NCBI GenBank assembly: GCA_030834835.1 | Contig: JAUQXD010000967.1 | Span: 1-11,397, forward strand | DNA from: Thermoflexales bacterium | GTDB lineage: Bacteria > Chloroflexota > Anaerolineae > Fen-1058 | Length of the DNA stretch: 11,397 nt | Direction of reading: 5' to 3' | Shown: positions 4,929 to 11,397 of the stretch, piece by piece | Numbering within the stretch: position 1 is the first letter of the stretch | Layout: the number at the start of each line of letters is the position of its first letter | Program-made: the position numbers and the translations under genes | The notes under the pieces: generated by a model | Told to the model about the DNA's origin: nothing | Seen by the model: the letters and a program-made list of their open reading frames with translations, nothing else | Database searches by the model: none

Positions 4929-5654
4929 ATGCCGCGCAAGTCTACGTTAATCAGCGGGTTGGTGTCAATCTTGGCCGGTGTGCTGATATTCAGCCAACCG
5001 GCTTTGCCATCAATCGCGCAAACGGCCAGCCCGCTTCAATCGCCGTCGGCCAGCCCGACACCGGCCTACACACCGCCGCCGACCTTTACACCTCAACCAA
5101 CGTTTACACCCCTGCCGCCTACTATGACGCCCACACCTGTCCCGCCTATTGCCGCACCCGTCACTGCGCCATTGCCGCCCATCATCGATCCGATTTTGAT
5201 CATCGGGGGCGGTCTGCTGGCGTTGGTTATTTTGCTGATCGTGTGGAGCCGGTTGCGCCGATCGCGTCACACCGCGGCCGAGCGCGCTGCACAACCGACC
5301 GAGCCCGTCAAGCCGATCGCGCCGCCGCCAGCCCCCACGGCCGCGCTGGAATTCAAGGACACGGCCGGCAACGTCGTGCGCTTCGCCCTGACCACCCCGT
5401 CGTTGACGCTGGGCCGCTCGGCGGACAACGATCTGATCGTGCCCGACAGCGTGCCCGAGGCGGACACAGTGTCGCAACATCACGCGCAGTTCAGGCGCGA
5501 TCAAGACGACTACATCGTGCGCGATCTCAACTCGCCCAACGGTCTCACCGTCAATGGCCGGCACACCAATCACAACGTCCTGCAAGACGGCGACCGGATC
5601 GCCTTTGGCGCGGCCGAGGCTGTCTTCCGCAAGCCGTCAGGAGGCGCAGCATGA
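4929..5654 (+). CDS. Membrane-anchored FHA-domain protein
   Basis: This 241-residue protein begins with a hydrophobic signal-like segment (residues 7-22, possible cleavage after SIAQ near 31). A Pro/Thr/Ser-rich stretch of about 50 residues follows, with TFTP-type repeats and very little charge, and would lie outside the membrane. A strong transmembrane helix occupies about 86-106, followed by WSRLRRSR as a cytoplasmic anchor. The C-terminal FHA domain spans about 139-235: LGRS (G162, R163, S164), VSQHHA (S182, H185), and NSPNG...VNG (N204, N209). FHA domains bind phosphothreonine peptides, so this protein could recruit phosphorylated partners to the inner face of the membrane. ATG 4929 is chosen because a promoter overlaps the earlier in-frame starts. 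Its stop overlaps the next gene by 4 nt (ATGA), indicating translational coupling. Domain calls are firm; the partner is unknown. Confidence 0.9.
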   Translation: MPRKSTLISGLVSILAGVLIFSQPALPSIAQTASPLQSPSASPTPAYTPPPTFTPQPTFTPLPPTMTPTPVPPIAAPVTAPLPPIIDPILIIGGGLLALVILLIVWSRLRRSRHTAAERAAQPTEPVKPIAPPPAPTAALEFKDTAGNVVRFALTTPSLTLGRSADNDLIVPDSVPEADTVSQHHAQFRRDQDDYIVRDLNSPNGLTVNGRHTNHNVLQDGDRIAFGAAEAVFRKPSGGAA

Positions 5655-7483
5655 AGTGCGTCAACTGCGGCACTCAAAACACGCCGGATGCCCGACACTG
5701 CCGCCATTGCGGCGCGGTGCTGCCCACCACCGCCGGGGTGGCCGAAGTGATCCCGTCGTACGGGGAGGATCCGGGCGGCACACAGCCGCTGGGCGCGGAT
5801 CTCACCGACAACGGCGGTACCCGCCCGCTCAGCGACACCGCCACGACCATACCCATCGAAGTGCCGGCCGCGCCGGGTCCGCATACGCGCCCGCTGCCTC
5901 GCAGCCGCATGTTCTTTGAGCCGCTGCCCGAGCGCGCCCTGCTGGCCGAGGACCGTTACAAGATTCGCGCGCTGATTGAAGAAACGCCGATGCTCAACAC
6001 GTATTCGGCCGTCAGCCGCCGTGCGCTGGTCGATTGCAAACAGTGCGGCTTTGCCCGCAACAACTACGGCGATCAGTTCTGTTTGCAGTGCGGCGCCAGC
6101 CTGGCCAACCTTGAGCCACTGTATCCCAACTACGTTATCAAAGAAACGCTCGCGCCCGACGCCGTGGCCGCCGAGCGCCGTCTGGCCGAAATGGAACTAC
6201 ATCACGGCGGGGCGCTGCTGCCGATCGAGACGTTCAATGAAACGCTCTTCGGCACGCGCCGCGTATACGTGGTGCTGCCCGAGCCGTCGCCGTTTACAGC
6301 GGCGCGGCTGCCCTCGCCGCCGGAAACGACCGATGTGGTCCACTGGGGTGTGCAGCTGGCCGATGCGCTGGCCTATTTGCACAAGAACAACGTCGCCTTC
6401 GGCGCAGCCGATCTCGATCACGTGGCAATCGCCGGCAAGGCCGCGCGCTGGTTCAATTTCGCGTCGGCGCGCGCGCAGACGCCGGGCACCCGCAACCGCA
6501 AAGTCTATACCGACGATGTGATTACGCTGGCCGCCAGCCTGGTGGTGCTGCTGACGGGCAAAGCCTTTGCGCCCGACATGACCGTGTCGCCGCCCGGGCT
6601 CGATCGGACGCTGCGGAACGTCTTCACCGGCAAAACGACCGCCGCCTCGCAATTCGCCGATCAGCTGCGCGACGTCATCAGCGAGATTCGCCGGCCCACC
6701 AGTTACGATGTGCGCGTGGGCCGCTTAAGCGATGTGGGACACGTGCGCCAGATCAACGAAGACAGTTTGCTCTCGATGGAAGTGGGCCGCGTGCACCGCT
6801 CGATCGGCACCCCGATCGGACTGTACGCCGTAGCCGACGGCATGGGCGGCCACTCCGCGGGCGATGTCGCCAGCGGCCTGACCGTCGATCTGATCGCCCG
6901 CCATGCCGTCGAAACGCTGCTGGCCGCCAACCTGGACGATCAGGGCAACGACTTCGATGTCAGCGCCTGGCTGCGCGAAGCGGTGGCCCTGGCCAATAAG
7001 ACTGTCCACGAACAGCGCCAGCTGGCGGGCACCAACATGGGCACCACGCTGGTCATGGCCTTCATCGCGGCCGGCCGCGCGTACCTGGCCAATGTCGGCG
7101 ACAGCCGCGCCTATTTGATCAATCAAGCCGGGATGAAACAGATCACCGTCGATCACTCGCTGGTGCAACGCCTCATCGAAACGAAGCAGCTCACCGTCGA
7201 AGAAGCCCGCACCCATCCGCAGCGCAACGTCATCTACAAGAACCTGGGCGATCGCGCCAACGTGGAGCCGGACATCTTCCAGATCGATCTTCAGCCGGGC
7301 GATCAACTGCTGCTCTGCTCCGACGGCCTGAGCGGTTATGTGGAAGATAGCGCGACCCTGGACATCATCCGATCGGCCCCCTCACCCCAGGTGGCCTGCC
7401 GCCAGTTGATCGACGCCGCCAACGCCAACGGCGGGCCTGATAACATCACGGCTATCATCGTGCAGCTGGAGACGTTGTCATGA
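5651..7483 (+). CDS. Zinc ribbon - pseudokinase - PP2C-type protein phosphatase fusion
   Basis: This 610-residue protein starts at ATG 5651, with a perfect AGGAGG at 5639-5644. Residues 3-20 are a zinc ribbon (C3, C6, C17, C20), followed by a Gly/Pro/Thr-rich linker. Residues about 100-350 resemble a Ser/Thr kinase fold: YKIRALIEE as first strand, a second zinc ribbon (C129, C132, C144, C147), VIK with Lys164, and QLADALAYLH at 235-244. The catalytic loop reads FGAADLDH where HRDxKxxN is expected, and DFG is replaced by NFA (269-271), so catalysis is very unlikely. Residues about 354-607 are a complete PP2C phosphatase: DVGxxRxxNED (E370, D371), ADGMGGH (D396), GTT, NVGDSRAY, CSDGL (D558) and GGPDNIT (D597). 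It should remove phosphate from Ser/Thr using Mn/Mg. The start ATGA overlaps the preceding stop and the end ATGA overlaps the next start. The zinc ribbons and PP2C are certain; the pseudokinase is a strong reading by eye. Confidence 0.9.
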   Translation: MKCVNCGTQNTPDARHCRHCGAVLPTTAGVAEVIPSYGEDPGGTQPLGADLTDNGGTRPLSDTATTIPIEVPAAPGPHTRPLPRSRMFFEPLPERALLAEDRYKIRALIEETPMLNTYSAVSRRALVDCKQCGFARNNYGDQFCLQCGASLANLEPLYPNYVIKETLAPDAVAAERRLAEMELHHGGALLPIETFNETLFGTRRVYVVLPEPSPFTAARLPSPPETTDVVHWGVQLADALAYLHKNNVAFGAADLDHVAIAGKAARWFNFASARAQTPGTRNRKVYTDDVITLAASLVVLLTGKAFAPDMTVSPPGLDRTLRNVFTGKTTAASQFADQLRDVISEIRRPTSYDVRVGRLSDVGHVRQINEDSLLSMEVGRVHRSIGTPIGLYAVADGMGGHSAGDVASGLTVDLIARHAVETLLAANLDDQGNDFDVSAWLREAVALANKTVHEQRQLAGTNMGTTLVMAFIAAGRAYLANVGDSRAYLINQAGMKQITVDHSLVQRLIETKQLTVEEARTHPQRNVIYKNLGDRANVEPDIFQIDLQPGDQLLLCSDGLSGYVEDSATLDIIRSAPSPQVACRQLIDAANANGGPDNITAIIVQLETLS

Positions 7484-8016
7484 TCAGTGACGGTCGACCA
7501 TCGACTGTCGACCGTCGTTCGTCATCAGCTTGCGGAGTGTGCGGCACGCCGGCCGAAGCGGGCGCGCGCTTTTGCATTCACTGCGGACATCCCTTCCCCA
7601 ACCCCATCGGCCTGCGCTGCCCCGCGTGTCACTCGATCAACCTGCCAGGCGAAGCCTTCTGCGAAGTGTGCGGCGCGCCGCTGCCCGTTGCACCCTACCT
7701 GGTCATCACCGAAACGGGGCTGCGTCTGCCGGTGTTTGTCGGAGAACAAGCCTCCCTGGTCGTGGGCCGCGCGGATGCGCTCAGCGGCGTCTTCCCGGAG
7801 ATCGATCTGTCACCCTACGGCGCAGAGGCCGCCGGCCTGTCGCGCCATCACGCGCGCCTGACGCGCAAAGACGATCAATACTGGCTCGAAGATCTCAACA
7901 GCGTCAACCTGACTTATCTCAACGATCAGCGTCTCACACCCGATCGGCCTGTGCGGCTCAAAGACGGCGATCTGATCCGGCTGGCGCGGCTGCTGGTGAC
8001 GTTCCGGGCGGGGTGA
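7480..8016 (+). CDS. Double zinc ribbon plus FHA-domain protein
   Basis: This 178-residue protein starts at ATG 7480, overlapping the PP2C stop by ATGA, with GGAG 8 nt upstream. Two zinc ribbons lie in tandem: C18, C21, C32, C35 and C47, C50, C61, C64. An FHA domain follows at about 72-176, with VVGRAD (G96, R97) and LSRHHARL (S121, H124). Its loop reads NSVNLTYLND where the usual NGT...VNG is expected, so two conserved glycines are missing (L144, D149), which may alter phosphopeptide binding. No membrane segment is present, so it is probably a soluble adaptor. Residues 5-15 are encoded by a GTCGACC-type heptad repeat; no later start would keep the first zinc ribbon intact, so the repeat is genuinely within the gene. 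Tight coupling to the phosphatase suggests the two act together, perhaps through their zinc ribbons. That partnership is inference. Confidence 0.88.
   Translation: MISDGRPSTVDRRSSSACGVCGTPAEAGARFCIHCGHPFPNPIGLRCPACHSINLPGEAFCEVCGAPLPVAPYLVITETGLRLPVFVGEQASLVVGRADALSGVFPEIDLSPYGAEAAGLSRHHARLTRKDDQYWLEDLNSVNLTYLNDQRLTPDRPVRLKDGDLIRLARLLVTFRAG
7489..7523. repeat. Heptad repeat inside the N-terminus of the zinc-ribbon FHA gene
   Basis: Plus-strand units GTCGACC (7493-7499), ATCGACT (7500-7506), GTCGACC (7507-7513), GTCGTTC (7514-7520) follow with an exact 7-nt step. The outer parts also pair: GACGGTCGA (7489-7497) with TCGACCGTC (7508-7516). Since 7 is not a multiple of 3, the repeat is read in shifting frames and yields a non-repetitive peptide (residues 4-15). 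Confidence 0.75.
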
Positions 8017-8047: not shown

Positions 8048-8953
8048 ATGACCGTTCCAGAATATCAAACTTTCATGCTGCCCTTGTTGAAACTGGCGAG
8101 TGATCAAAAAGACCACACGTTGAGTGAAGTGTATGATCGTCTTGCTCAAGAATTCGGTATCAGCGATGTGGAACGATCAGAGTTGCTACCCAGCGGCAAA
8201 CAATCGCGTTTCGATAATCGAGTGGGCTGGGCGCGCACTTACCTGAAAAAAGCCGGGTTAATCGATAGCGCCGGACGCGGCGTATTCCACATCACCAGAC
8301 GCGGGTTGGATGTCCTCAAATCAAAGCCCACCTCAATCACGAAAGACTACTTGACCCGGTTTCCAGAATTCAAAGACTTCCAAGCACGGCAGACCGTAAG
8401 AACGGCCACTGGTGAATCCGAAGAGAACCACGATAAAACGCCAGATGAAACGCTCGATGCGGCCTATCAAGTCTTGCGGCGCACACTGGCACAAGACCTG
8501 CTTGATCGCATCAAGAACAGTTCGCCACGCTTCTTCGAAGCGGTGGTCATTGATTTGCTGCTGGCAATGGGCTATGGCGGCTCAAGAATCGACGCTGGAG
8601 AAATCGTCGGCAAGAGCGGCGATGGCGGCATTGACGGCATCATCAAAGAAGACAAGCTGGGCCTTGACGCGATCTACGTTCAAGCCAAACGCTGGACAGG
8701 AACGGTAGGACGCCCAACTCTACAAGAATTCGCGGGCAGTCTGGCCGGGCGCAAAGCGCGCAAGGGCGTGATCATCACAACTTCGCAATTCACATCAGAA
8801 GCGAAAGACTACGCTGATCGACTGGATATGAAGATAGTGCTCATCGACGGCGAGCGGCTGGCCCAACTCATGATCGACTACGGCGTCGGCGTAGCTGAAA
8901 AAGTTGCTTACTCTGTCAAACGCATTGACGAAGACTACTTCACGGAAGAATGA
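8048..8953 (+). CDS. mrr: Mrr-type restriction endonuclease
   Basis: This 301-residue protein is close in length to E. coli Mrr (304). Residues about 5-90 form the Mrr N-terminal winged-helix domain (MLPLLKLASD, LSEVYDRLAQEF, RVGWARTYLKKAGLI, GVFHITRRG). Residues about 150-285 are the Mrr catalytic domain of the PD-(D/E)xK superfamily: FFEAVVIDLLLAMGYG (E164), SGDGGIDG (D196), YVQAKRW (Q212, K214), GVIITTSQFT and VLIDGERLAQLM. Mrr enzymes cut DNA carrying methylated bases (type IV restriction). ATG 8048 has GGAG 9 nt upstream. The gene is 31 nt after the zinc-ribbon FHA gene, so it can be co-transcribed with the signalling cluster. It is visibly more AT-rich than the PP2C gene and has no CGATCG, hinting at more recent arrival. 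No hsd- or mod-type DNA methylase lies beside it, consistent with a stand-alone enzyme. The family is secure; its biological target is unknown. Confidence 0.93.
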   Translation: MTVPEYQTFMLPLLKLASDQKDHTLSEVYDRLAQEFGISDVERSELLPSGKQSRFDNRVGWARTYLKKAGLIDSAGRGVFHITRRGLDVLKSKPTSITKDYLTRFPEFKDFQARQTVRTATGESEENHDKTPDETLDAAYQVLRRTLAQDLLDRIKNSSPRFFEAVVIDLLLAMGYGGSRIDAGEIVGKSGDGGIDGIIKEDKLGLDAIYVQAKRWTGTVGRPTLQEFAGSLAGRKARKGVIITTSQFTSEAKDYADRLDMKIVLIDGERLAQLMIDYGVGVAEKVAYSVKRIDEDYFTEE

Positions 8954-8959
8954 TTCTGA

Positions 8960-8979
8960 CGCTCTTGGCGTCTTGGCGG
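8960..8979. repeat. Short tandem TCTTGGCG repeat before the methyltransferase
   Basis: TCTTGGCG occurs twice in succession (8963-8970 and 8971-8978), followed by GTCAATC. It occupies most of the 35 nt between the Mrr stop and the preferred methyltransferase start. It looks like a fragment of an interspersed noncoding repeat, which supports placing the start at 8989 rather than 8950. Confidence 0.5.
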
Positions 8980-8988
8980 TCAATCCCT

Positions 8989-9819
8989 ATGGCTCATATC
9001 AACGATCAAACCTATCTGCTGAAAGACCAATACCGCGACTCAGCCAACCTCGATGCGCGAGTGCGGCTGCACGTGCTATTCAGCACCAACAAATCCGGCT
9101 GGAATCGCTGGTACTTCGATCAACTCGATCTGCCACCCAACGCCCGCATCCTTGAACTGGGCTGCGGGCCGGGCTATCTGTGGCGTGACAACCTCGAGCG
9201 CATTCCGGCGAGTTGGGACATCACACTGTCCGATTTTTCAGCCGGCATGATCGATCAGGCCCGCACGAATCTACAAGCTGCTCAGAGCGGATTGCCAAAT
9301 CCGCGCTCCACAACCGAATCGTTTCGATATGAGATCATCGATGCGCAATCGATCCCGTTTGATGACAACACCTTTGACGCCGTGATCGCCAATCACATGC
9401 TGTACCACGTTCCCGATCGAGCGAAGGCGCTGTCGGAAATGCGACGCGTGCTCAAATCGACTGGCGTTGCCTGTCTCGCCACCAACGGCGATCGGCATCT
9501 GACGGAACTATATAATTTACACTACCGTTTCGATCCGAACATAGCCTTTGGCTGGGGAAAGCGAGCGCATGAGATGTTCTCGATCGATACCGGCAGTGCC
9601 GAACTGCGACCCTGGTTTCCGTCGATTGAAGTCCGCCGCTACGACGATGCGCTGATCGTGACCGAAGTGCAACCGCTGGTTGATTACATCCTGTCGATGG
9701 CGACGCCTGAAGTTGTCGCGCAGCGCCGCGCCGAACTGACCGCCTTCATCGAGCGTGAAATGCAGCCGACCGGAGCCATTCACATCACCAAAGATTCCGG
9801 TCTGTTCATCGCGCACTGA
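8989..9819 (+). CDS. Class I SAM-dependent methyltransferase
   Basis: From ATG 8989 this is 276 residues. The Rossmann-like methyltransferase core has motif I ILELGCGPGYLW (54-65), motif II ITLSDFSAGMIDQA (78-91), IPFDDNTFDAVIANHMLYHV (122-141) and RRVLKSTGVACLAT (152-165). This matches the UbiE/Methyltransf_11 type that methylates small molecules, lipids or quinones; there is no DNA-methylase catalytic motif such as NPPY, DPPY or a PC motif. The N-terminal YLLKDQYRDSANLDARVRLH appears conserved in related proteins of unknown substrate. The frame continues to an ATG at 8950 that overlaps the Mrr stop (ATGA), but that extension is encoded by a short noncoding-like repeat, so 8989 is preferred. 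Neither start has a strong ribosome site. The gene closes the possible operon running from 4929. Its substrate and link to the signalling genes are unknown. Confidence 0.88.
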   Translation: MAHINDQTYLLKDQYRDSANLDARVRLHVLFSTNKSGWNRWYFDQLDLPPNARILELGCGPGYLWRDNLERIPASWDITLSDFSAGMIDQARTNLQAAQSGLPNPRSTTESFRYEIIDAQSIPFDDNTFDAVIANHMLYHVPDRAKALSEMRRVLKSTGVACLATNGDRHLTELYNLHYRFDPNIAFGWGKRAHEMFSIDTGSAELRPWFPSIEVRRYDDALIVTEVQPLVDYILSMATPEVVAQRRAELTAFIEREMQPTGAIHITKDSGLFIAH

Positions 9820-10036: not shown

Positions 10037-11397
10037 ATGTCCGCCACTCCACCCAATCAATCTCAACCCTTCGACGGCACGCAAGTCGTGATGCTGGCCC
10101 GCGCCACGTTGAGCGTGCGCCAGCCTGACGGCCGCGCCCGCACCATCGTGTTGACGCGCGAGCCGCTGACCATTGGCCGCCATCCCACCAACGATGTCGT
10201 CATCGACATCGCCACGGTCTCGGCCGAACACGCCATCATCGAGAACGTCGACAGGCAATATTGCCTGACCGATCGCGGCAGCCGCAACGGCACGTTTGTC
10301 AACGGGCAGCGCGTCGTCACGGTCGGCACGTCGGTCGACTGCGACCTCGCGCTCACCGATCCGACGGTCAGCCGCTACCACCTCGAGGTCCGCCACGCCG
10401 CCGACGGCCTCGCGCTCGTCGACCTCGGCAGCCGCAACGGCACGTTCGTCAACGGCCAGCGCATCTCCATTGCCATGCTCAAAGACGGCGACATCATCCG
10501 CATCGGCGATGCACGCGGCAACTCGGTCGGCCTGACGTTTCACGCCGGCCAGGCGCCACAGGCCACTTCCGTCGAGACGTTCGATCTGGCCGCGAACGAC
10601 ACGCTGACGATCGGGCGCGATCCCGGCTGCGATCTCACCCTCGATTCGCCGCTCGTGTCACGCCATCACGCCCGATTGGAACGCAGCGGCCCCACGCACA
10701 CCCTGATCGATCTGGGCAGCACCAACGGCACATTCGTCAACAGCCAGCGGATCGATCAGCAACCGCTGCGGCCGGGCGACATCGTGCAGATCGGCCCGTA
10801 TCGCCTGACGTATCAGCCCGGCGCGATCAGCCAGGTGCTGCCCGCGCAGCGCGGCCGATTGGATGCCTTGCACCTCACGCGCCGCATCAATGGCGATCGC
10901 GGCGAACGCCGCATCATTCTGAGCGACGTCTCGCTCTCGATCGCGCCGCGCGAATTTGTCGCCATCGTCGGCGGTTCGGGCACGGGCAAGACTACCCTGC
11001 TCAATGCGCTCAGCGGCTTCGAACCGGCCGAGGGCCGAGTCCTGCTCAGCGGTGATGACTTCTACGAGCACTTCGATCTATATCGCGGCCTGATCGGTTA
11101 CGTGCCGCAGGACGACATCATCCATCGCGAATTGCCCGTGGGGCAAGCCCTGCGTTACGCCGCGCAATTGCGCCTGCCGCGTGACACCTCCGAAGGTGAA
11201 ATCGACAGCCGCATCGAGCGCGTTCTGACCGAAGTGGAAATGGACGAACAGGTCGAGCGCGTCATCGGGCGTTTGAGTGGCGGGCAGCGTAAGCGTGTCT
11301 CGATCGGCGTGGAGCTGCTGGCCGAACCCGGCGTCTTCTTTCTGGACGAGGCAACTTCGGGGCTTGATCCCGGCCTCGAAAAGAAGTTGATGTACAC
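10037..11397 (+). CDS. Triple-FHA ABC-transporter ATPase, ABCG-like (3' end cut by window edge)
   Basis: The frame is open from ATG 10037 to the window edge, giving 453 residues. Three FHA domains come first. FHA1 (about 24-92) has IGR (R48), VSAEH and NGTFVNG (N84). FHA2 (about 93-168) has VGT with Thr98 in place of the phosphate-binding Arg, VSRYH and N134. FHA3 (about 178-260) has R194, S208, H211 and N230. The ABC ATPase follows from about 277: Walker A GGSGTGKTT (312-320), Q-loop Gln358, signature LSGGQ (413-417), Walker B VFFLDE (433-438) and SGLD. The order FHA then ABC, and DDIIHRELPVGQALRYAAQLRLP after the Q-loop, are typical of ABCG-like exporters that continue into an ABC-2 membrane domain, presumably beyond the window. 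No ribosome site precedes the ATG, which adjoins a heptad array; ATG 10091 is a less likely alternative. FHA control by phosphothreonine links it to the PP2C cluster by inference. FHA1 seems to lack its final strands. Confidence 0.92.
   Translation, partial: MSATPPNQSQPFDGTQVVMLARATLSVRQPDGRARTIVLTREPLTIGRHPTNDVVIDIATVSAEHAIIENVDRQYCLTDRGSRNGTFVNGQRVVTVGTSVDCDLALTDPTVSRYHLEVRHAADGLALVDLGSRNGTFVNGQRISIAMLKDGDIIRIGDARGNSVGLTFHAGQAPQATSVETFDLAANDTLTIGRDPGCDLTLDSPLVSRHHARLERSGPTHTLIDLGSTNGTFVNSQRIDQQPLRPGDIVQIGPYRLTYQPGAISQVLPAQRGRLDALHLTRRINGDRGERRIILSDVSLSIAPREFVAIVGGSGTGKTTLLNALSGFEPAEGRVLLSGDDFYEHFDLYRGLIGYVPQDDIIHRELPVGQALRYAAQLRLPRDTSEGEIDSRIERVLTEVEMDEQVERVIGRLSGGQRKRVSIGVELLAEPGVFFLDEATSGLDPGLEKKLMY
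10276..10462 (+). repeat. Near-identical 37-bp direct repeats within FHA1 and FHA2
   Basis: The stretch 10276-10312 recurs at 10426-10462 with 35 of 37 bases the same, exactly 150 nt apart and in frame. It encodes GSRNGTFVNGQR in both domains. FHA3 has a more diverged version at 10714-10750. Such similarity can come from recent duplication or gene conversion, and it makes the region prone to in-frame deletion or misassembly. Confidence 0.85.

Follow-up and report, generated by a model that had tools for sequence, protein, structure and literature searches.

A predicted pseudokinase with conserved catalytic losses fused to an apparently intact PP2C phosphatase among FHA protein genes of a Thermoflexales bacterium

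An 11,397-nucleotide stretch of DNA from a Thermoflexales bacterium of the phylum Chloroflexota (contig JAUQXD010000967.1, assembly GCA_030834835.1; this whole stretch is the window) contains a gene that encodes a predicted pseudokinase fused to a PP2C phosphatase. The open reading frame at 5651..7483 is genuine and in frame, with the ATG at 5651, the stop codon at 7481-7483, and the sequence AGGAGG at 5639-5644 preceding the start. An earlier note on this DNA had recognized, in the N-terminal half of the protein, the order of elements of a Ser/Thr kinase without its catalytic residues. Beyond that note, we identified a zinc ribbon inside the N-lobe, T-x-P-L motifs in the linker, and neighbor genes coding for FHA domains. 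The gene has the following layout:

5651..7483, + strand: whole gene, 610 amino acids, in the order zinc ribbon, T-x-P-L linker, pseudokinase with inserted zinc ribbon, PP2C
5651..5725, + strand: N-terminal zinc ribbon, Pfam PF13240, residues 1-25, with Cys3, 6, 17 and 20
5726..5911, + strand: disordered linker of low identity, residues 26-87, predicted local distance difference test (pLDDT) score <50 for residues 27-85
5780..5791, + strand: T-x-P-L motif 1, Thr44-Leu47
5819..5830, + strand: T-x-P-L motif 2, Thr57-Leu60
5885..5896, + strand: T-x-P-L motif 3, Thr79-Leu82
5942..6694, + strand: pseudokinase domain, residues 98-348
6026..6115, + strand: zinc ribbon in the beta2-beta3 loop, residues 126-155, with Cys129, 132, 144 and 147
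6140..6142, + strand: Lys164, the beta3 lysine, kept
6398..6421, + strand: degenerate catalytic loop, residues 250-257
6455..6463, + strand: degenerate DFG, residues 269-271
6515..6517, + strand: Asp289, the structural Asp of helix F, kept
6707..7480, + strand: PP2C phosphatase domain, residues 353-610

A Pfam scan of the 610-residue protein identifies PP2C, the zinc ribbon at the N-terminus and, weakly, a second ribbon, with no kinase match even at an E-value of 10; single-sequence searches of the PDB with the pseudokinase domain found no kinase either. The profile search suggested by the earlier note failed with the Pfam Pkinase model but succeeded when profiles were compared with profiles: in hhalign, the pseudokinase alignment matches that of 15 canonical kinases with a probability of 96.8 (E-value 2.5e-10). 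As controls, the PP2C half of the same alignment reaches a probability of 2.74 against the kinases (E-value 0.017), and five column shuffles reach 0.07 to 1.06 (E-values 0.05 to 0.7). An iterated comparison scores 99.0, which is weaker evidence than it appears because that alignment included relatives already recognized by the kinase model. One relative, L095 (L numbers denote loci), matches Pfam Pkinase with 50.1 bits against a cut-off of 31.7. The matches listed for the full-length structure model are PP2C phosphatases and uninformative on the kinase part, so the pseudokinase domain was folded alone. The result is a confident, complete bilobal fold of the Hanks/PknB type, for which all 50 Foldseek matches listed and all 50 VIA-align matches listed are protein kinases, with PknB ranking first by Z. 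Both hhalign and the strands and helices of the models bear out the kinase order and the register of the earlier note, with Lys164 as the beta3 lysine, Ala252 in the place of the HRD Asp, His257 in that of the loop Asn, and Asn269-Phe270-Ala271 in that of DFG. The activation segment is short in the model, spanning about residues 268-282. As judged from profiles and models, the N-terminal half is predicted to fold as a PknB-type kinase.

Residues 95-352 are matched by 95 proteins (query included), 91 of them over at least 97% of that stretch, and the sources, where named, are Chloroflexota (Thermoflexales, Anaerolineae). After 24 near-duplicates or fragments were removed by eye, 71 proteins, the window protein included, were aligned (alignment A1, which reaches down to about 50% identity; counts out of 71 refer to it). 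Among the hallmarks of an active kinase, the beta3 lysine is present (Lys in 70 sequences, Arg in 1), and the HRD Asp, the loop Asn, and DFG are missing. The glycine-rich loop is gone as well, with the window protein reading IEETPMLN. The catalytic loop reads FGAADLDH for HRDLKPxN; position 252 is Ala in 63 sequences, Thr in 4, and Leu, Met, Val or Gly in one each, and never Asp, and position 257 is His in 71 of 71 (and in 93 of the 95 proteins, the other two being unmatched by the pattern). The DFG Asp is replaced by Asn in 48 sequences and kept in 23, and the DFG Gly is left in a single one (position 271: Thr 45, Ala 13, Ser 9, single Val, Asp, Gly and Asn). Glu165, Trp267, Phe270 and the helix F Asp289 are present in all 71 sequences, and Pro210 and Pro212 of the presumed hinge are invariant. 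The mean pairwise identity of the pseudokinase is 63.5%, compared with 68.7% for PP2C and 38.1% for the linker, and 38 of 251 pseudokinase positions are invariant. The catalytic losses are conserved across the homologues, and neither of the two outcomes that the earlier note had named as contrary to its proposal was encountered: the fold is kinase-like, and none of 169 proteins shows an intact HRD/DFG pattern. Judging from the sequences, this kinase is permanently inactivated through conserved losses and not through decay.

The inner zinc ribbon lies between the strands at 115-122 and 160-166 of the model, and all four of its cysteines are present in 71 of 71 sequences. They are also invariant in all 70 rows of a second, broader alignment (A2: the window, 29 of 35 locus fragments, and 40 homologues) that reaches 22% identity. 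The N-terminal ribbon is conserved almost as strictly, with Cys3, 6, 17 and 20 found in 69, 70, 70 and 70 of the 71 sequences and gaps in the remainder. No active kinase with the same beta2-beta3 ribbon was found among 15 HRD/YRD kinase segments in 116 loci (16 before a duplicate was removed; an FRD kinase beside L012 is outside this set).

The phosphatase half retains all metal residues, as the earlier note had stated: Asp371, Asp396-Gly397 and Asp558-Gly559 are found in 71 of 71 sequences, and Asp597 in 70, with one gap. The window protein scores 244.6 bits with the NF033484 Stp1 model, above the cut-off of 230 for the Stp1/IreP equivalog. PP2C is apparently intact and of the Stp1/PstP Ser/Thr phosphatase type.

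Despite its low identity, the linker is not uniformly variable: 10 of its 62 positions are conserved in at least 64 of 71 sequences (T44, P46, T57, P59, L60, T79, P81, L82, R84, R86), and eight of the ten are T-x-P-L positions, the others being Arg84 and Arg86. In motif 1, Thr and Pro46 are each present in 70 sequences, and position 47 is Leu in 49, Phe in 17, Val in 2, Ile in 2 and Pro in 1; in motif 2, Thr and Pro59 are each present in 70 and Leu60 in 64; in motif 3, Thr and Leu82 are present in all 71 and Pro81 in 66. Across the 67 of 71 linkers that could be parsed, T-x-P-[LFVIM] occurs 3.42 times per linker compared with a mean of 0.21 and a maximum of 0.36 in 200 shuffles, which ignore the kinship of the sequences, and the serine control S-x-P-[LFVIM] occurs 0.40 times compared with 0.13. 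Like motifs occur in other clades (GGTQPL in Herpetosiphon, HGTRPL in L030, TGPL in L070, and similar ones in L035, L047, L051 and L060). In a set of 74 proteins found from L053 (see below), an [ED][ED]LV.Q block is kept in 28, with Thr at a fixed site in 27 of these and TQP[VL] in 20 (EELVTQP[VL]). The T-x-P-L motifs resemble ligands of FHA domains, some of which prefer Ile or Leu three residues after the phosphothreonine (pT+3). Residues reported at pT+3 for FHA selectivity include S, D, M and V (PMC5549992). Long linkers with PTxx[LMI] stretches were observed in L011, L016-L020 and L023.

The pseudokinase group extends beyond the close homologues. Among 151 genomes of the window's phylum, its own genome included, 23 match all or part of the domain; in 10 of these (L011, L014-L020, L023, L025) the match spans at most 71 residues, corresponding to the N-lobe and ribbon part, and L025 shows no PP2C match. 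Of the 42 locus rows of at least 190 residues (window included), 2 carry Asp at the HRD position and 3 carry Asn at the loop position, with no row carrying both, and the helix F position is Asp in 40 and Asn in 2. A second homologue search, started from L053, gave the set of 74 proteins (query included), in which the HRD-Asp position is Asp in 58, Asn in 6, Glu in 5, Gln in 4 and Ser in 1, the DFG Asp is Asp in 73 and Glu in 1, the loop Asn is replaced by Gln in 67 and His in 7, and, in the L053/Kallotenue clade, lysine is absent from the predominant residues of the beta3 stretch. This set is degenerate at positions other than those of A1; therefore, different clades lost different residues. 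Pseudokinase-PP2C fusions are also present in L074, L085, L087, L091, L095 and L098, labelled Deltaproteobacteria or Proteobacteria, and in L079, labelled bacterium; these seven match the kinase model directly (7e-20 to 3e-24), and L095, by eye, reads NDLCPES in the loop and TGL in the DFG place. The seven, from genomes most of which carry the label Deltaproteobacteria, appear as a separate, less degenerate fusion near FHA and kinase-model matches. Altogether, these relatives suggest a pseudokinase group that is old and conserved, with occasional shrinkage, and not the remains of a recent loss.

Several other relatives vary in domain content. PP2C proteins in L011, L014, L016-L020, L023, L068, L083 and L084 retain no more of the pseudokinase than its N-lobe and zinc-ribbon part. 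In L033 and L038, the N-terminal zinc ribbon is missing and transmembrane segments are present, as expected if the N-terminus serves localization; L034 resembles them by eye, with no transmembrane segment flagged by the hydropathy cut. A plasmid search with the L053 relative returned 68 records, and the 40 matches listed cover the PP2C part only. The L053 match to NF011149 (PRK14559), a PP2C family that we take to be cyanobacterial, begins about 120 residues before PP2C, so this family may hold the same pseudokinase C-lobe; the NF011149 model matches 6 of 14 control genomes, including that of Synechococcus elongatus, and exceeds its cut-off in one.

The genes next to the fusion encode mainly FHA proteins, together with a restriction endonuclease and a methyltransferase:

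4929..5654, + strand: membrane-anchored FHA protein (FHA E-value 1.3e-15; start placed by eye, 4908 also possible)
7480..8016, + strand: double zinc ribbon-FHA protein (FHA E-value 1.4e-16, Zn_Ribbon_1 E-value 4.7e-11)
8048-8953, + strand: Mrr-type restriction endonuclease
8950-9819, + strand: class I S-adenosylmethionine-dependent methyltransferase, overlapping the Mrr gene (ATGA)
10037..11397, + strand: protein with three FHA domains and an ABC ATPase, cut by the contig end (start placed by eye)

The stop codon of the upstream FHA gene overlaps the start of the phosphatase gene, and the stop codon of the latter overlaps the start of the double-ribbon FHA gene, each through ATGA. The upstream protein consists of a signal-like start, a Pro/Thr-rich stalk, one hydrophobic transmembrane segment, and FHA. 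In the window, L026, L027, L028, L030 and L032, the upstream neighbor is an overlapping or abutting membrane FHA gene, and in L031 such a gene lies about 1.1 kb upstream; a strict tie between the upstream membrane FHA gene and the T-x-P-L motifs was considered and dropped, being broken by L031 and L032. FHA-model matches of similar length to the triple-FHA protein lie downstream in L027, L028 and L029, and the only one of these proteins that was scanned, from L027, has two FHA domains, ABC, and an ABC2 membrane domain. In the window and 35 further loci, the FHA model matches a gene in the flanks at 21 of 36, the kinase model at 15, and either at 25; these counts leave out L004 and L009 (short flanks) and L074 and L095 (separate group), and are lower bounds and not independent, given many short flanks and several close kin. 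The triple-FHA ABC protein is Rv1747-like, and its second FHA domain, by eye, reads GT at the expected phospho-binding GR. Inside this locus, the Mrr gene recurs at the corresponding position in L026 and L028 and not in L027 or L029, and the methyltransferase gene is found in L027, L028 and L029 (by eye).

The host genome comprises 6.48 Mb in 1452 contigs and is 90.7% complete with 7.0% contamination, values that limit statements on what it holds or lacks; the Pkinase model matches 11 places in it, the window protein not among them. On contig C1333 (L002) of the same genome, a plain PP2C gene lies between a partial kinase-model match with beta-propeller repeats and a DnaJ-vWA gene.

To our knowledge, little is understood about how bacterial PP2C phosphatases select their substrates. 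For the protein in the window, we consider it somewhat probable that the phosphatase is addressed by phosphorylation. A Ser/Thr kinase encoded elsewhere would phosphorylate the T-x-P-L threonines; FHA domains of the operon would bind the phosphorylated linker and bring the phosphatase to the membrane, and would also bring it to clients that carry FHA domains, such as the nearby FHA-ABC protein. The pseudokinase with its inner zinc ribbon would serve as a non-catalytic docking or allosteric module, in the simplest form by pairing its dead PknB-like surfaces with a live kinase or with PP2C. PP2C would then strip phosphates locally, those of its own linker included, which would make recruitment self-limiting. 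Several observations weigh against FHA recruitment through the linker. The window contains no kinase gene; the shuffles behind the motif enrichment do not account for kinship; and T-x-P-[LFVIM] was not found in several members of the Chloroflexia (for example, L041, L042, L046, L049 and L059). L031 and L032 have the upstream membrane FHA gene, yet no T-x-P-[LFVIM], with T-x-x-L variants in L032, and the Herpetosiphon-type loci L036, L039, L040, L043, L045 and L055 keep the motifs with no FHA or kinase match in the flanks examined. The full-length structure model (predicted TM score, pTM, 0.51) gives no reliable domain arrangement.

The earlier note had proposed ligand sensing by the dead kinase, or the holding of a substrate for the phosphatase in the same chain, as its possible role. 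The fold, the conserved losses, and the intact metal residues uphold a dead kinase and an apparently intact phosphatase in one chain, but the sequence evidence points first to FHA recruitment via the linker, with the pseudokinase as a conserved module that has no catalytic role. A ligand sensor, in which a nucleotide or small molecule in the former ATP site (Lys164, Glu165, His257, Trp267, hinge) switches PP2C allosterically, is a possibility that we take seriously and still regard as unlikely. The near-invariance of Lys164 and the invariance of Glu165, His257, Trp267, Phe270 and the two hinge prolines are what such a sensor would predict, but these residues may be kept for structural reasons, the glycine-rich loop is gone, and the metal-binding Asp is Asn in 48 of 71 sequences. 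Moreover, the beta3 lysine is absent in the L053/Kallotenue clade, and therefore the pocket chemistry is not common to the whole family. A more elaborate proposal strikes us as improbable: built-in dead PknB domains would switch an ancient PP2C class by pairing with live PknB-type kinases through kinase-kinase surfaces and handing their phosphorylated segments to PP2C in the same chain, with a phospho-T-x-P-L/FHA clamp to the membrane and a His257/Lys164/Trp267 pocket that reads a small molecule gating the handover.

Unusual chemistry of the pseudokinase, such as the AMP transfer or glutamylation known from certain other proteins classed as pseudokinases, is very unlikely. Lys164 together with an invariant His at the loop Asn position might be seen as its machinery, and SidJ is described as a glutamylase with a kinase-like domain (PMC12599244); however, none of the 71 sequences has Asp at the catalytic position (63 have Ala), Asn replaces the DFG Asp in 48, and different clades have lost different residues. 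We give hardly any credence to simple decay, with a former kinase half in the course of being lost. Loss does occur elsewhere, in the eleven loci that match only the N-lobe and ribbon, but as a full account decay is contradicted by the same substitutions fixed across the clade, the high identity with 38 invariant positions, and the confident complete fold.

Parts of this architecture are already known, namely, PP2C-kinase fusions (PMC1262709) and bacterial pseudokinase families (PMC12599244). The Pseudomonas fusions described by Krupa and Srinivasan in 2005 (PMC1262709) likewise combine a kinase fold and PP2C in one chain, but there PP2C is N-terminal to the reported kinase, whereas in the window the kinase fold is N-terminal and degenerate. 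Compared with Stp1, IreP and PstP, for which the solved structures that were matched are catalytic domains alone, the window protein adds a zinc ribbon, a T-x-P-L linker, and a pseudokinase in front. It shares with the PknB-type kinase domain the fold, element order, beta3 Lys and helix F Asp, and differs in lacking the HRD Asp, loop Asn, DFG and glycine loop and in having the beta2-beta3 ribbon and a short activation segment. The mycobacterial pseudokinase MviN is phosphorylated and bound by FhaA (PMC12599244); the likeness is a pseudokinase protein with a phosphorylated segment as FHA ligand, reported for MviN and only predicted for the window, and MviN as described there has no phosphatase domain. 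O'Boyle et al. 2025 describe seven families of bacterial pseudokinases (ActPs1-3, GLW, CP1, DYD, DLHK; PMC12599244), in which the loss of catalytic motifs is likewise conserved and a partner domain is present. The window protein differs from GLW, defined there by GLW for HRD and Leu/Trp for the beta3 Lys, in reading FGA at 250-252 and keeping Lys164, and from CP1, linked there to a COG3899 domain, in having PP2C as partner and no ATPase domain according to Pfam. The main text of that paper (PMC12599244) contains none of the words PP2C, zinc and Chloroflex. ArnA of Sulfolobus (zinc ribbon, linker, FHA) likewise brings a zinc ribbon and FHA into one pathway, but has no kinase or phosphatase domain as described (PMC12852372, PMC6509490). 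The A1 profile matches ArnA over residues 2-101 (E-value 7.9e-6), a match that was set aside as probably due to the common zinc ribbon. Literature searches of open-licence PMC papers found no dead kinase with an N-lobe zinc ribbon before an intact PP2C.

This pseudokinase group, which the standard kinase profile misses in the window protein, is not described among the seven families of 2025 as presented in PMC12599244. A phosphatase chain that combines a predicted dead kinase with two zinc ribbons and with motifs of the FHA-ligand type offers a directly testable route to regulated, local dephosphorylation.

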